From Bacteroidia bacterium (lineage in GTDB: Bacteria; Bacteroidota; Bacteroidia; 2-12-FULL-35-15), in NCBI GenBank assembly GCA_030654175.1, contig JAURXZ010000008.1:427426-491425 (forward strand): a DNA stretch of 64,000 nucleotides, given 5' to 3'. Made by a program: the position numbers and the translations under genes. Below, one piece after another: positions 49,193 to 53,512 of this stretch. The number at the start of each line of letters is the position of its first letter. The stretch's first letter is position 1. The notes under the pieces were generated by a model. It was not told where the DNA came from. It ran no database searches and saw nothing but the letters and a program-made list of their open reading frames with translations.

Positions 49193-50350
49193 TTATCCCA
49201 ATGCCTGTTTTAAATCAGCGATCAGATCCTCAATATCTTCAATTCCAACGCTAAGGCGAAGCAGCGATTCCACAACACCTGCTTTATCACGTTCCTCTTT
49301 AGGAATAGATGCATGCGTCATAGTAGCAGGGTGATTGATCAATGATTCCACACCACCCAATGATTCAGCCAAAGAAAAAACTTTCATGCTCGAAGCAATT
49401 TTAAAAGCATCTTCCTGTTTGTTGCCTTTTAATGAAAAGGAGATCATTCCACCGAAATCACGCATTTGCTTTTTAGCAATATCATGGTTAGGACTGTCAG
49501 GAAACCCCGGCCAATACAGTTTATCAATTTTAGGATGTGTTTTTAAAAACTCAGCAACTTTACGTCCATTATAACAATGGCGCTCCATGCGGATGTGTAA
49601 GGTTTTAATTCCACGTAGTACTAAAAAACTGTCTTGTGGGCCAGGAGTGGCACCACAGCTGTTATGGATAAATGCCAATTGCTGATATAAATTATCATCA
49701 CTCAAACACAAAGCACCCATGATCACATCACTATGTCCGCCTAAATATTTAGTAACCGAATGCATAACGATATCAGCCCCAAGTGCCAAAGGATTTTGTA
49801 AAAAAGGAGAAGCAAATGTATTGTCAACAGCACAAATCAACTTATTTGCTTTTGCAATTTTTGCGCAAGCTTCAATATCAATAATTTGCATGGTAGGATT
49901 GGTAGGTGTTTCCAGCCATATCATTTTTGTATTTGCATTGATGTATTTCGAAATGTTACTCGCATCTTTCATATCGATGAAATGAAATTTGATCCCAAAA
50001 TTTGCAAATACCTTCGTGAACATGCGGTAAGTACCGCCATACAAGTCATCACCTGTAATTACCTCATCACCCGGACGAAGTAATTTAGCAACTGCATCAA
50101 TAGCGCCCATTCCACTTGAAAAACACAAACCATATTTAGCACCTTCCAAAGCCGCTAAACAATTTTCGAGTGCAGTACGTGTAGGGTTTTTACCACGGGC
50201 ATAGGCATAACCTTTGTGACTTCCGGGGCTTACCTGCGTATACGTTGATGTTTGATAAATTGGAGTCATGATCGCTCCTGTAGTTGGGTCAGGTTCCTGA
50301 CCAGCATGTATTGCTTTGGTACCAAAGCCTAAATTTTTTGAATCTGCCAT
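49193..50350 (-). CDS. Trans-sulfuration PLP enzyme (cystathionine gamma-synthase/lyase)
   Basis: 385 aa, full-length Cys/Met metabolism PLP enzyme. Motifs: TPIYQTSTY, YAYARGKNPTRTALE, CFSSGMGAID, DDLYGGTYRMF and the PLP lysine in HSVTKYLGGHSDV. RLSVGIEDIEDLIADL closes the protein. It catalyses either gamma-replacement (Met synthesis) or gamma-elimination (Cys synthesis); the sequence does not decide. A TACCTTTG -7 box lies 24 bp upstream (50374-50381). Confidence 0.95.
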   Translation of the reverse strand: MADSKNLGFGTKAIHAGQEPDPTTGAIMTPIYQTSTYTQVSPGSHKGYAYARGKNPTRTALENCLAALEGAKYGLCFSSGMGAIDAVAKLLRPGDEVITGDDLYGGTYRMFTKVFANFGIKFHFIDMKDASNISKYINANTKMIWLETPTNPTMQIIDIEACAKIAKANKLICAVDNTFASPFLQNPLALGADIVMHSVTKYLGGHSDVIMGALCLSDDNLYQQLAFIHNSCGATPGPQDSFLVLRGIKTLHIRMERHCYNGRKVAEFLKTHPKIDKLYWPGFPDSPNHDIAKKQMRDFGGMISFSLKGNKQEDAFKIASSMKVFSLAESLGGVESLINHPATMTHASIPKEERDKAGVVESLLRLSVGIEDIEDLIADLKQALG

Positions 50351-50373
50351 GTTTGAATTTTAATTTTGTGGCG

Positions 50374-50381
50374 CAAAGGTA
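50374..50381 (-). promoter_or_regulatory. Putative -7 box of the trans-sulfuration gene
   Basis: TACCTTTG on the minus strand, 24 bp before the ATG at 50350. Confidence 0.5.
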
Positions 50382-50522
50382 ATTGTTTTAAAAATGTAGG
50401 GAGATTTTTTTTAATAAATAGGGAAATAGCTATAAAAGGCTTTGTCGAGAGTTTTTTTACAGTCTAATATGCTCGTTTGTCCGCATGAGGTCTGCCATGT
50501 AACTTAGGTGCTTTTTTGTAAA

Positions 50523-50697
50523 TAACGTTTCGCAGCTAAAAGAAGTGCGGATTTACTTGCACAAAAATGTCTTAACCGATAAACTTTATTAAATGTACTG
50601 AACTAAATTGCAAATGCAAAATATTCCGCGCTTCGCGCCCCGATAAAAGCCGCATTTGCAGCTAGCAAAATTTCCGCATTTATTTTAGGTGCTGTTA
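50523..50697. repeat. Cassette-like structured repeat R1 (175 bp)
   Basis: TAAC at the left pairs with GTTA at the right. The 19-nt arms (50532-50550 GCAGCTAAAAGAAGTGCGG, 50674-50692 CCGCATTTATTTTAGGTGC) are complementary apart from two mismatches and one G-T wobble. A core (50589-50620) is identical in 31 of 32 positions to R2. It lies just downstream of the 98-aa orphan gene and fills the 392-bp gap before the trans-sulfuration gene. Confidence 0.85.
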
Positions 50698-50742
50698 TAA
50701 GCTGGCTGTTACACTTAGTATCACAATGCTCAAGTGTCCGCC

Positions 50743-51039
50743 TTACTTTTTCGAACAGTATCTACCAATTGCTCTAGAACCAAGCAGTCTAATATAGATG
50801 ACGTTGTCAGCAAACCAACGCTTTTCTGTTTTGAAAATTACTGCGATTGCTGTGTCTCTTTTGTCTATAGTTCGTCCGTAAACAGTGTCATTTCTTAAAT
50901 TACTGTCTGTAAATTCTGGAAAGTCTCTCAACACAGGATTGTCGCCACAACATTTCCACCTGCCTTTTATTTCATCATTGTCTAAGGTACAGCCTTGAAA
51001 CACAATTAAAATAATTAATATGGAGGAAAATTTTCTCAT
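50743..51039 (-). CDS. Orphan 98-aa lipoprotein in cassette-like unit
   Basis: 98 aa. N-terminal MRKFSSILIILIVFQGC is a lipoprotein signal with Cys17. The mature part (LDNDEIKGRWKCCGDNP... VIYIRLLGSRAIGRYCSKK) has further cysteines and lipocalin-like GRW wording but no family I recognise. It lies alone between repeats R1 and R2, same strand as the next orphan gene, without its own visible promoter or terminator. Confidence 0.65.
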   Translation of the reverse strand: MRKFSSILIILIVFQGCTLDNDEIKGRWKCCGDNPVLRDFPEFTDSNLRNDTVYGRTIDKRDTAIAVIFKTEKRWFADNVIYIRLLGSRAIGRYCSKK

Positions 51040-51065
51040 TTATTAGTGTCTGTCAAACAGCTTGC

Positions 51066-51237
51066 TTACGTTTTGCAGCTAAGCGAGATGCGGTAAAAGC
51101 ACTCACCTGTCTTGCCGCACAAAATTGATTAAATGTACTGAACTAAATGGCAAATGCAAAAAATATTGCGCGGAGCGCACCTTTGAAAAAGAATTTGCAA
51201 CTAGCACAATCTTCCGCATCTTGCTTAGGTGCTGTTA
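51066..51237. repeat. Cassette-like structured repeat R2 (172 bp)
   Basis: Arms 51075-51093 (GCAGCTAAGCGAGATGCGG) and 51214-51232 (CCGCATCTTGCTTAGGTGC) pair with one mismatch and one wobble. Core 51129-51160 matches R1. The right end (GCTGTTA) contains the stop codon of the 229-aa orphan gene. Relative to R1, three stem positions (9, 10 and 13 of the arm) change on both sides so that pairing is kept. Confidence 0.87.
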
Positions 51238-51924
51238 GCTGCTGCTTTTTTTCTTGTCTGTCATTGTTATCTGTCCAAGTATTCTATTTCCGCTTTTGTC
51301 AAAATAAAATGTAGTTGATTTTTTATTCTGTCGGTGGGATAAATGCAAACTTATTAAGGGTTCGTCTTCCTTTAAATTTTTAATATTTGATTTTAGTTCG
51401 TCCCAACCTTCAACTAACCAGTCGTTTTGCTTATTCGAAGTAAGTCCATTGTGAATTTGAAGTGTAAGCCCAACGTTGTTTGAGCCAATTGATTTACTAT
51501 ACTCATTATTTTTATCGAATTTTTCTACGGTAGCTTTAATTAATGGCAAACTTAATTTTGGGTCAACATATAGGTCTTCCCTTTTTAAATACCCTTGCAA
51601 GATTCTTAATAGAAGAGTTTTGTCAAATTCTACATCTGTACTACTATATTGGTCTGTAACACGATTAACATAAAACTTCTTTAAATAAACATGGTCACCG
51701 AATTTTTCGAATGGAATCTTATAAATGCAAATATTTGTCCAACTGCGAGCTAAATATAAATTGTTTGAATTAACAAAAATATGCCATTTGCTATCCATGT
51801 TTGGAGCAAAAACTCCCTTTTCAAACAATTCAAATTCGCCTGAAGAAATGACTACTGAGATGTTGTCTTCAACAAATTTGTCAGGAAATGAATTCGCAAT
51901 TGTATTTTTCTTTTCGTCTGTCAT
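51235..51924 (-). CDS. Orphan 229-aa hypothetical protein in cassette-like unit
   Basis: 229 aa, no signal peptide or TM. Central strands KWHIFVNSNNLYLARSWTNICIYKIP and YLKKFYVNRV suggest a mixed alpha/beta fold; family not recognised. The stop codon overlaps the right end of R2, and only 9 bp separate the start codon from a GCAGCTAAC word like the left arm of R1/R2. The ORF therefore fits its repeat-bounded unit tightly, as gene cassettes do. Confidence 0.65.
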   Translation of the reverse strand: MTDEKKNTIANSFPDKFVEDNISVVISSGEFELFEKGVFAPNMDSKWHIFVNSNNLYLARSWTNICIYKIPFEKFGDHVYLKKFYVNRVTDQYSSTDVEFDKTLLLRILQGYLKREDLYVDPKLSLPLIKATVEKFDKNNEYSKSIGSNNVGLTLQIHNGLTSNKQNDWLVEGWDELKSNIKNLKEDEPLISLHLSHRQNKKSTTFYFDKSGNRILGQITMTDKKKSSS

Positions 51925-51929
51925 AAAGT

Positions 51930-52030
51930 TGCAGCTAACATGTTTATAAGCGCAACTAGTTGCGCTTATTTGTCTTATTTGGAATATATGCGCAACTGGT
52001 TGCGTATATTTCCTATTATACGCAATTATT
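51930..52030. repeat. End of cassette-like array: tandem 24-bp palindromes
   Basis: GCAGCTAAC (51931-51939), then a perfect palindrome 51946-51969 (ATAAGCGCAACT and mirror) and a near-copy 51986-52009 (ATATGCGCAACT and mirror), 40 bp apart, with a half copy at ~52018. It lies between the orphan gene start and the bshB1 stop. Confidence 0.8.
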
Positions 52031-52052
52031 TTTGTATTATTTTTTGTTTTGC

Positions 52053-52769
52053 TTAGGTAAGTTCAAAAAGATTCTCAACCCCAATAGTTCGCTCAACAGT
52101 AAATCCTTCTGCATATTCAAAACCGGCATCACGACCAAAAACATGCATTTTACCTTTAACTACATCTAAAAAATTTTTCATTGAAATAGGTGATTCCGGC
52201 TCTGTTGAATCAGGATTATAGAATTGAGATTTGAATGCTTGAATAGCCTCCATTTTCTTTTCTACAAATGCTGTTATATCTACTACAAAATCAGGTTTTA
52301 ATTGCCTGTCTTGTATATAGTGATATACGGCTTTTGGTCTCCATGCTTTCTGGTTAACAGAATTAAGCTGTGTTTCAACTCGCATTAATCCACTGTAAAA
52401 ACAAGCCTCCGAAACCAATGCGGATGCACGTCCATGATCGGGGTGACGGTCACTTGCGGCATTGCAAAGAATAATTTCGGGCTGGTATTCACGTATTTTT
52501 TTTATGATCTCGAGTTGATGCTCCTTATCATTTTTAAAAAATCCATCTGCCATACCTAAATTATCACGGACGCTTACACCCAGTATTTTAGCAGCATTGG
52601 CAGCTTCCACCAAACGTAATTCTCCGCTGCCACGTGTACCCAGCTCACCGGAAGTTAGATCAACAATTCCGCATTTTTTTCCTAAAGCGATATGTTTTAA
52701 GATTGTTCCTGAGCACGACAATTCAACATCATCAGGGTGTACACCTATTGCAAGTATGTCTAATTTCAT
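52053..52769 (-). CDS. bshB1: Bacillithiol biosynthesis deacetylase BshB1
   Basis: 238 aa. PIG-L/LmbE zinc deacetylase: AIGVHPDDVELSCSGT (H-P-D-D metal motif), DLTSGELGTRGSGELRL (BshB signature) and SDRHPDHGRAS (second metal histidine). It removes acetate from GlcNAc-malate to give GlcN-malate in bacillithiol synthesis. The bacilliredoxin at 8.2 kb supports bacillithiol use. Its neighbour upstream is a glutathione peroxidase-family gene. Confidence 0.95.
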   Translation of the reverse strand: MKLDILAIGVHPDDVELSCSGTILKHIALGKKCGIVDLTSGELGTRGSGELRLVEAANAAKILGVSVRDNLGMADGFFKNDKEHQLEIIKKIREYQPEIILCNAASDRHPDHGRASALVSEACFYSGLMRVETQLNSVNQKAWRPKAVYHYIQDRQLKPDFVVDITAFVEKKMEAIQAFKSQFYNPDSTEPESPISMKNFLDVVKGKMHVFGRDAGFEYAEGFTVERTIGVENLFELT

Positions 52770-52854
52770 CGGTTATAGATAATGAATTTATACGATTTTA
52801 TGAATCCGGTTTATAAAATTGCCTACTGTTAAATTGAAAAATTGCCCAATTATT

Positions 52855-53400
52855 TTATTTAACTATCCAATTTACAATTTTATCATCCATTGGTTTTTCT
52901 TTAGAATAGGCCACATCCACCAGGTTCCCTTTTTCATCGATCATGTATTTCTGAAAGTTCCACTTTACTTCCGAATCCATTTTCCCATTTTTTGCTTTTT
53001 GAGTAAGCCATTGATAAACAGGATTGATATCGTCACCTTTTACCGAAACTTTTTCCATGATCTGAAAAGTAACACCATAATTTTTGGTACAGAACTCTTT
53101 TATATCAGCATTTGTTCCCGGTTCCTGGTGCATGAAGTTATTGGCAGGGAAACCAATAATAACAAAGTTTTTGTCTTTATACGCTTGAAATAACTTCTCA
53201 AGGTCCTCATATTGTGGTGTATAGCCGCATTTAGAGGCCGTATTCACTATCAGCACTTTTTTACCTTTTAATGATGAAAAATCAAAATCATTTCCTTCAA
53301 TGGTTTTGGCTTTCAGGTCATAAAATGATGTTTGTGCCTGAGCTATACCAGCGCTTATCAGGATAAAAGCAAGTAATAAAATATTCTTTTTTGTTTGCAT
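52855..53400 (-). CDS. Glutathione peroxidase-family thiol peroxidase, exported
   Basis: 181 aa. Signal peptide (LLLAFILISAGIAQAQ), then a GPx fold: NTASKCGYTPQYEDLEKLF with the peroxidatic Cys, GFPANNFMHQEPGTN (Gln/Asn of the catalytic tetrad) and VKWNFQKYMID (Trp). The resolving-Cys helix motif resembles thioredoxin-dependent GPx. It reduces peroxides, probably in the periplasm. A 45-bp-plus AT-rich spacer with GCCTACTG word separates it from bshB1. Confidence 0.92.
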   Translation of the reverse strand: MQTKKNILLLAFILISAGIAQAQTSFYDLKAKTIEGNDFDFSSLKGKKVLIVNTASKCGYTPQYEDLEKLFQAYKDKNFVIIGFPANNFMHQEPGTNADIKEFCTKNYGVTFQIMEKVSVKGDDINPVYQWLTQKAKNGKMDSEVKWNFQKYMIDEKGNLVDVAYSKEKPMDDKIVNWIVK

Positions 53401-53512
53401 GGATCAAGGTTTATATTTAGGTTTTTACTCTTAAATTATTGTTCATTTATAAGGCTGGTAAATGTACGAAAAAGTATAGGTTGGTGAAATTAAACAAATT
53501 TAAAGCAAGAGG

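Follow-up and report, generated by a model that had tools for sequence, protein, structure and literature searches.

Integrons are the described systems that stand closest to the locus analysed here. A recombinase gene lies beside a landing site (attI), and cassettes, all in one direction and each ended by an imperfect hairpin (attC), follow. The two ends of a cassette are complementary to each other, recombination takes place at G|TT, and the strand opposite the gene is favoured. The consensus of the attC R' box is GTTRRRY. Clusters of cassettes without any recombinase are also found, as they are in the system described below. A length of 57-142 nt and use of the bottom strand are given for classical attC sites in the available part of PMC2727003. 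The single-strand ability of the integrase IntI is thought to come from its I2 region, an additional helix; this role is without direct proof, as deletion of I2 kills IntI1 (PMC7790495, in the part accessible). In the accessible portion of PMC9024848, one Bacteroidetes genome, that of Salinibacter ruber M1, is recorded as having a complete classical integron, and a large survey has one complete integron in the phylum.

Here we analysed a window, that is, a whole stretch of 64,000 nucleotides of a Bacteroidota genome. It very probably contains a short array of cassettes belonging to a gene-capture system that resembles integrons; recombination is inferred from sequence, and none was observed. 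Judged by the same kind of evidence, the system is widespread among Bacteroidota, including the plasmids and phages of these bacteria. The literature searched, which covered no preprints and few subscription papers, gave no account of such a system, and prior work may exist.

Anatomy of the locus

The array occupies the minus strand at 50523-52052, where an attI-like site is followed by cassette A (a 229 aa gene and its repeat) and cassette B (a 98 aa gene and its repeat).

51940..52052, minus strand: attI-like landing site, 113 bp, from the bshB1 stop codon to cassette A; AT-rich, with inverted repeats ATATACGCAACCAGTTGCGCATATAT and ATAAGCGCAACTAGTTGCGCTTAT, ending in AAACAT|GTTAG
51234..51939, minus strand: cassette A, 706 bp; start GTTAGCTGC complementary to end GCAGCTAAC
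51235..51924, minus strand: gene 2, in cassette A, 229 aa, no known family
51067..51237, minus strand: attC-like hairpin repeat of cassette A, TAACA...CGTAA, 171 nt; TAACAGCACCTAAGCAAGATGCGG ... CCGCATCTCGCTTAGCTGCAAAACGTAA
50694..51069, minus strand: cassette B, 376 bp, with a degenerate start
50743..51039, minus strand: gene 1, in cassette B, 98 aa, no known family
50523..50697, minus strand: attC-like hairpin repeat of cassette B, TAACA...CGTTA, 175 nt; TAACAGCACCTAAAATAAATGCGG ... CCGCACTTCTTTTAGCTGCGAAACGTTA
50496..50522, minus strand: probably what is left of another cassette or repeat, after the last CGTTA; AGCACCTAAGTTACATGGC

A sequence-only reading of this DNA had noticed two repeats with a shared 32-bp core around same-strand orphan genes. 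The repeats (175 and 171 nt) were found at about the places and sizes proposed, and the core lies at 50589-50620 and 51129-51160 with 31 of 32 bases equal. The ends described as TAAC/GTTA-like are TAACA...CGTTA and TAACA...CGTAA on the minus strand. Both genes are indeed on that strand, and neither matches any Pfam or NCBIfam family. The stop codon seen inside a repeat end is that of gene 2, formed by the TAA of the repeat's TAACA, and the supposed third partial boundary GCAGCTAAC (51931-51939) proved to be the first nucleotides of the cassette that holds gene 2, which are complementary to the other end of the same cassette. It was also correct that the window contains no integrase, or indeed any recombinase, and that the R box consensus is not fitted.

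In the unit-rule scan described below, the ends of cassette A were complementary at 9/9 and 13/16 positions, with A.C at position 11. The start of cassette B, GTAAGCAAGCTG, is degenerate, being 3 nt shorter than predicted from its complementary end. The N terminus of gene 1 appears lipoprotein-like in our reading, and a stretch similar to the terminal remnant occurs near L043:10172-10192. Two near-perfect palindromes at 51946-52009, within the attI-like site, are possible recombinase binding sites. An Rfam scan of 49500-53500 gave no match.

A repeat family with sharp ends

Recurrence of the repeat is far above chance. A genome search matched it in 25 of the 36 genomes of the genus and in 2 of 63 other genomes, one of these two matches being weak (G039, E 8.8e-4); matched copies were 67-93% alike. 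Further copies lie in the window's own genome, on contigs C44 and C32. When 55 copies were aligned, their ends were sharp (TAACA on the left, CGTTA on the right), with little conservation outside. The arms could be measured in 51 of these copies, four being skipped, and the distance between boxes was 158-176 nt in 46 of them and 118-120 nt in 5. Shorter sites also turned up in a further scan. Searches for both repeats and gene 1 in plasmids, and for the conserved middle of the repeat in viral contigs, gave no match.

Complementarity between the two ends of a cassette

In arrays, the start of a cassette (GTTAnnnGCAAg..., directly behind one repeat) is complementary to the other end of that cassette, directly ahead of the following repeat. 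Over 32 cassettes, a mean of 4.38 of 6 positions were complementary, against only 2.42 of 6 when the left flank of a repeat was compared with its right flank (n=52) and 2.32 of 6 in shuffles; none of 5000 shuffles reached the observed mean. Complementarity of this kind makes sense only in a circle, because only there do the two ends meet. The circles themselves are inferred.

A scan based on this rule returned 68 units in 47 sequences, cassette A among them, and 0 in one shuffle of each sequence; a few of the 68 overlap or resemble chance. As the rule includes the A.C position, the occurrence of A.C in 68/68 units reflects selection. Without the A.C rule, A/G and its mirror image made up 129 of 173 pairs at position 11. 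The longest ORF of the unit was in sense direction in 61 cases and antisense in 2, with none in 5 (n=68). This orientation speaks against the repeat occurring irrespective of orphan ORFs, an outcome that would have refuted the sequence-only reading. Genes shared between cassettes were mostly distant matches. GTTRRRY was matched by only 7 of the 68 starts, indicating that the sites are analogous to attC rather than canonical. The earlier inference of a Bacteroidota array of recombination sites, either attC-like or analogous to attC, is supported in this form.

Covariation and strand bias of the hairpin

The arms of the two window repeats had been said to differ with compensation on the opposite arm, and compensation holds family-wide. 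In the 19-pair stem, compared across 32 copies, 76 cells had changes on both sides versus 26.7 in shuffles, a number reached by 0 of 500 shuffles; 6-19 such cells were counted when the stem was slid. The number of stem pairs showing a double change was not unusual (10 versus 8.6 in shuffles, reached in 58 of 500). The inner arms covary as well (27 distinct arm pairs, 2.07 of 3 versus 1.22, 0/20000). Single copies, including those of the window, folded overall no better than shuffled sequences (z 0.08, -0.81, -1.60), so the evidence for structure is comparative.

On the gene strand, 60 mismatched cells were of the A.C or C.A type, 44 of these in two stem columns, and 13 were of the G.T or T.G type. 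Since the mismatches are mostly A.C, the opposite strand has G.T wobbles and pairs better. We modelled the circle form for 45 of the 68 units, the remainder being without a clean right end. The opposite strand in this predicted form was more stable than the array form in 45/45 units and more stable than its own complement in 41/45. That this single strand is the substrate is inferred.

attI-like sites with and without a recombinase

In two genomes (G006 and G030), the attI-like region of the window aligns with an attI-like stretch some 200-220 bp beyond a long-type recombinase, and in a third (G024) with one that lies 1.0 kb beyond such a recombinase. The window holds an orphan attI site, away from any recombinase; its array consists of sites and cassettes only, yet it has kept an attI-like site homologous to recombinase-linked ones. 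GCG at -14 to -12 is common to most of 25 junctions compared. As a possible sign of a cassette promoter (Pc) at attI, TAnnTTTG, the Bacteroidota -7 box, was present within 160 bp upstream of 11 of the 25 (antisense, 4 of 25; shuffled mean 2.3, maximum 6), and none was found at the window junction.

Similar orphan sites lie, by our reading of the ORFs, behind metF (C44) and behind adenosine-deaminase-, ThiF-, Fic- and MazG-like genes. Two genomes (G008 and G063) have two similar attI copies each, one beside a recombinase and one elsewhere. In the stretches fetched, no family recombinase was found beside orphan sites, except for a weak match far from the site (L059). It is inferred that orphan copies are probably served in trans.

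The neighbouring gene, bshB1, was found in 28 of the 36 genus genomes. The order bshB1-cgl of the window recurs in three relatives (L220, L227 and L230), but there cgl lies 668-911 bp on, beyond an intervening gene; G017, the relative closest in bshB1 (94% aa), has other genes at that place. Among the stretches examined, a repeat or unit near bshB1 was found only at the window's own locus, the three cgl-bearing loci being without a repeat. No clean empty site corresponding to the window was found among the relatives' bshB1 loci.

Recombinases related to IntI and XerA

The IntI model TIGR02249 was not matched above its cut-off in any of 99 genomes. Its best matches there include tyrosine recombinases of about 360-560 aa, and four recombinases scored 190-225 bits against a cut-off of 265. 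Among the matches listed, alignments end near position 180 and restart near 238; in the L050 recombinase, 21 residues stand opposite 64 residues (179-242) of IntI4. In the AlphaFold prediction for a related core encoded on a viral contig (L103, pLDDT 88), a helix at 162-175 is followed by a loop and a helix at 193-207, and the closest structures to this modelled core were IntI4 and XerA (Foldseek, VIA). Catalytic fold and sequence are alike for IntI4, also called VchIntIA (PDB 2a3v; phmmer 6.5e-36, Foldseek 2.4e-17), which has an SP..kL-like C-terminal tail in common with these recombinases, and for XerA (PDB 5hxy; phmmer 2e-39). The best or second-best NCBIfam model was XerA (NF040815), named 'site-specific tyrosine recombinase/integron integrase', whose threshold was exceeded by L050; one plasmid copy is annotated likewise. 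By sequence, the recombinases beside the arrays resemble IntI and XerA and are without the IntI-specific I2 region.

Many members of the family have between one and three domains at the N terminus whose fold is unknown, a description made partly by eye. Compared with solved structures, the N-terminal domain gave nothing below E 0.12, and its AlphaFold region was low in confidence. In L086, L088, L091 and L092, the N-terminal 260 aa contain a WS..W domain of no known family, with up to three repeats before the catalytic domains. A likeness of the N-terminal domain to HARP domains was considered and dropped for lack of Pfam support.

The resemblance to XerA raises the possibility that the recombinase moves cassettes on double-stranded sites, in the manner of Xer or lambda, and that the hairpin has another use such as transcription termination. 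Both the rank of the XerA model and its placement beside IntI4 by Foldseek and VIA fit this explanation, as does the absence of I2, the thought source of single-strand ability in IntI (PMC7790495, accessible part). We consider it unlikely, because the complementarity links the start of a cassette to its own end, two sites in contact only once a circle has formed, and does not link repeat flanks in the array, and because the placement of mismatches favours folding of one strand. Termination would need neither cassette-end complementarity nor strand-biased mismatches.

Cassette arrays beside recombinases

Absence of any recombinase would also have told against the sequence-only reading; in fact a recombinase family adjoins the arrays. 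We examined 21 recombinases for adjoining cassette junctions. A 9/9-paired cassette start was present within about 420 bp in 10 of them, and in 6 of 110 shuffled regions; another (L083) had an 8/9 pair at the expected place. Nine of the other 10 had less than 1.6 kb of contig left, and the junction of the last (L087) lay 1.0 kb on. Pairs of 8/9 also obtained for L087 and L089 were taken for chance. A chain of 5 cassettes follows the L050 recombinase; the chain scan also picked up chance pairs, with a chain of at least 2 in 4 of 47 shuffled sequences.

The window's own genome has a complete element on contig C32, in which a recombinase and a divergent attI-like site are accompanied by cassettes; plus-strand repeats were matched there up to 187 kb. 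A second recombinase, of the long type, lies on another contig (L211:1902-3755, G000:C16) and is broken by an IS1-like insertion, so the window array may have lost its own enzyme.

The N-terminal domain was found in 21 of the 36 genus genomes and in 45 of 247 sampled Bacteroidota genomes. Within the genus it was present in 17 of 25 genomes with repeats (one, G020, by a weak 35-aa match) versus 4 of 11 without, which is not decisive. The eight repeat-bearing genomes in which it was not detected must be seen with the incompleteness of several genomes in mind, and two of the four repeat-less genomes that have it do so only in short frames. Eleven recombinase regions from the phylum sample, chosen by us, were also scanned: 8 had units and 3 were at contig ends, with 1 unit in all shuffles together. 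Single-contig genomes are among the 8, making an assembly artefact unlikely. One of the sampled genomes (G150, L264; one contig, 2.8 Mb) has an array of six units, with gene matches to the LinB-like nucleotidyltransferase, GmrSD, dihydropteroate synthase, GmrSD C-terminal, HNH and AlbA families. Cassette cargo includes restriction enzymes, a methylase and many genes of no known function.

Related recombinases were present at 80 viral-contig loci, several with arrays (L103, L104, L106, L114, L146, L166 and L177). These loci gave 37 units versus 2 after shuffling, the upper length being slightly different in the shuffles. The recombinases read there were mostly without the N-terminal domain. In four IMG/VR contigs (L104, L106, L103 and L177), cassette-like arrays adjoin small recombinases, and many of these arrays have very short cassettes.

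An array without its enzyme could also be an ordinary integron remnant (CALIN), whose canonical attC sites were formerly used by a classical IntI encoded elsewhere. The overall anatomy is alike, and the complete classical integron of Salinibacter ruber M1 (PMC9024848, available part) would provide a precedent. This origin is nevertheless very improbable: TIGR02249 remained below its cut-off in all 99 genomes, GTTRRRY is rare at cassette starts (7/68), the longer repeat class exceeds 57-142 nt, and a different recombinase repeatedly adjoins the arrays.

Different content behind a fixed junction

Identical gene content in all relatives would likewise have been damaging to the sequence-only reading, whereas plasmids and phages differ in content behind one fixed junction. 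The Chryseobacterium plasmids NZ_CP041688 and NZ_CP094530 have 90% identity over 2.6 kb through the recombinase and attI; identity ends at ACATATAAACAAGTT (G|TT; ACAAGTT), with different genes beyond. The unit rule found 1 and 0 units on them.

The records of ten Freya isolates of Polaribacter phages from one host strain (L271-L279) vary in length by as much as 4.9 kb, and in the pairs compared the differences adjoin the recombinase. In the stretch compared, Freya_9/10 and Freya_5/6 are pairs told apart by a single inserted block each (307 and 472 bp, respectively); both blocks sit at one and the same point of attI, 46 nt ahead of the recombinase gene. When positioned within their slide of 3 or 7 nt, the blocks start with GTT and end with AAC. 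Six isolates have a common ...ATAGGGGT|GTT followed by six different sequences, and in Freya_1/2 a difference of about 842 bp adjoins this point and is bounded by a longer direct repeat. In our reading the Freya blocks are without full end complementarity. They support change at the site without proving its mechanism, and other means of movement could be involved. The paper describing the Freya phages (PMC8776804, as far as its accessible part goes) states that an integrase is encoded by them and that they may therefore be temperate; the word 'integron' is absent from its main text.

Content could in principle have been changed by homologous recombination between dispersed hairpin repeats (MITE, REP-like or terminators) that happen to lie by unrelated genes, and matched copies are alike enough to make such exchange possible. 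We find this scarcely credible in view of the sharp GTT/AAC boundaries, a complementarity that is specific to the cassette and not to the repeat, and gene directions of 61 to 2; moreover, arrays begin at a recombinase-linked attI, and content switches exactly at the G|TT behind it.

Discussion

The arrays have several integron features, namely an attI beside the recombinase gene and cassettes in one direction, and several attC features, namely complementary R'' and R' ends and imperfect L'/L'' inverted repeats with strand asymmetry. They also differ from integrons. IntI has I2, whereas the recombinase here is without it and often has one to three N-terminal 'WS..W' domains. In place of GTTRRRY, most R boxes read GTTAnnnGC and have an A.C mismatch at position 11. 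Long repeats, mostly 158-176 nt between boxes, exist besides a class of 118-120 nt, attI copies are also found behind other genes, and the recombinase may be divergent or co-directional. The system appears to work like an integron, yet we do not class it as one, because the IntI score, the I2 domain and the GTTRRRY consensus were tested and not met.

We propose that the tyrosine recombinase, whose role as the agent is inferred, would excise a gene with its terminal repeat as a circle. The circle would then be inserted at G|TT, either in an attI-like site or in a different repeat. In the circle, the two ends of the cassette may pair over about 16 nt, extending the hairpin of the repeat, and the presumed substrate would be the folded strand opposite the gene strand. 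G.T wobbles, seen as A.C on the gene strand, would mark this strand and fix the direction of insertion, so that genes are read away from attI. Arrays could grow in this way next to the recombinase and, probably through service in trans, at orphan attI copies elsewhere.

We think it likely that these arrays represent a second, phylum-wide kind of integron on chromosomes, plasmids and phages, with single-strand recombination without I2, a G.T strand code and one recombinase for several attI sites. As part of this joint reading, the tyrosine recombinase would either never have had I2 or have lost it. A natural system without I2 and with the same cassette logic makes the question of the role of I2 (PMC7790495, in its available part) testable. 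If our reading is true, a phylum with one complete integron in a large survey (PMC9024848, accessible portion) has its own widespread cassette platform, one that, we infer, IntI-based tools would probably miss.
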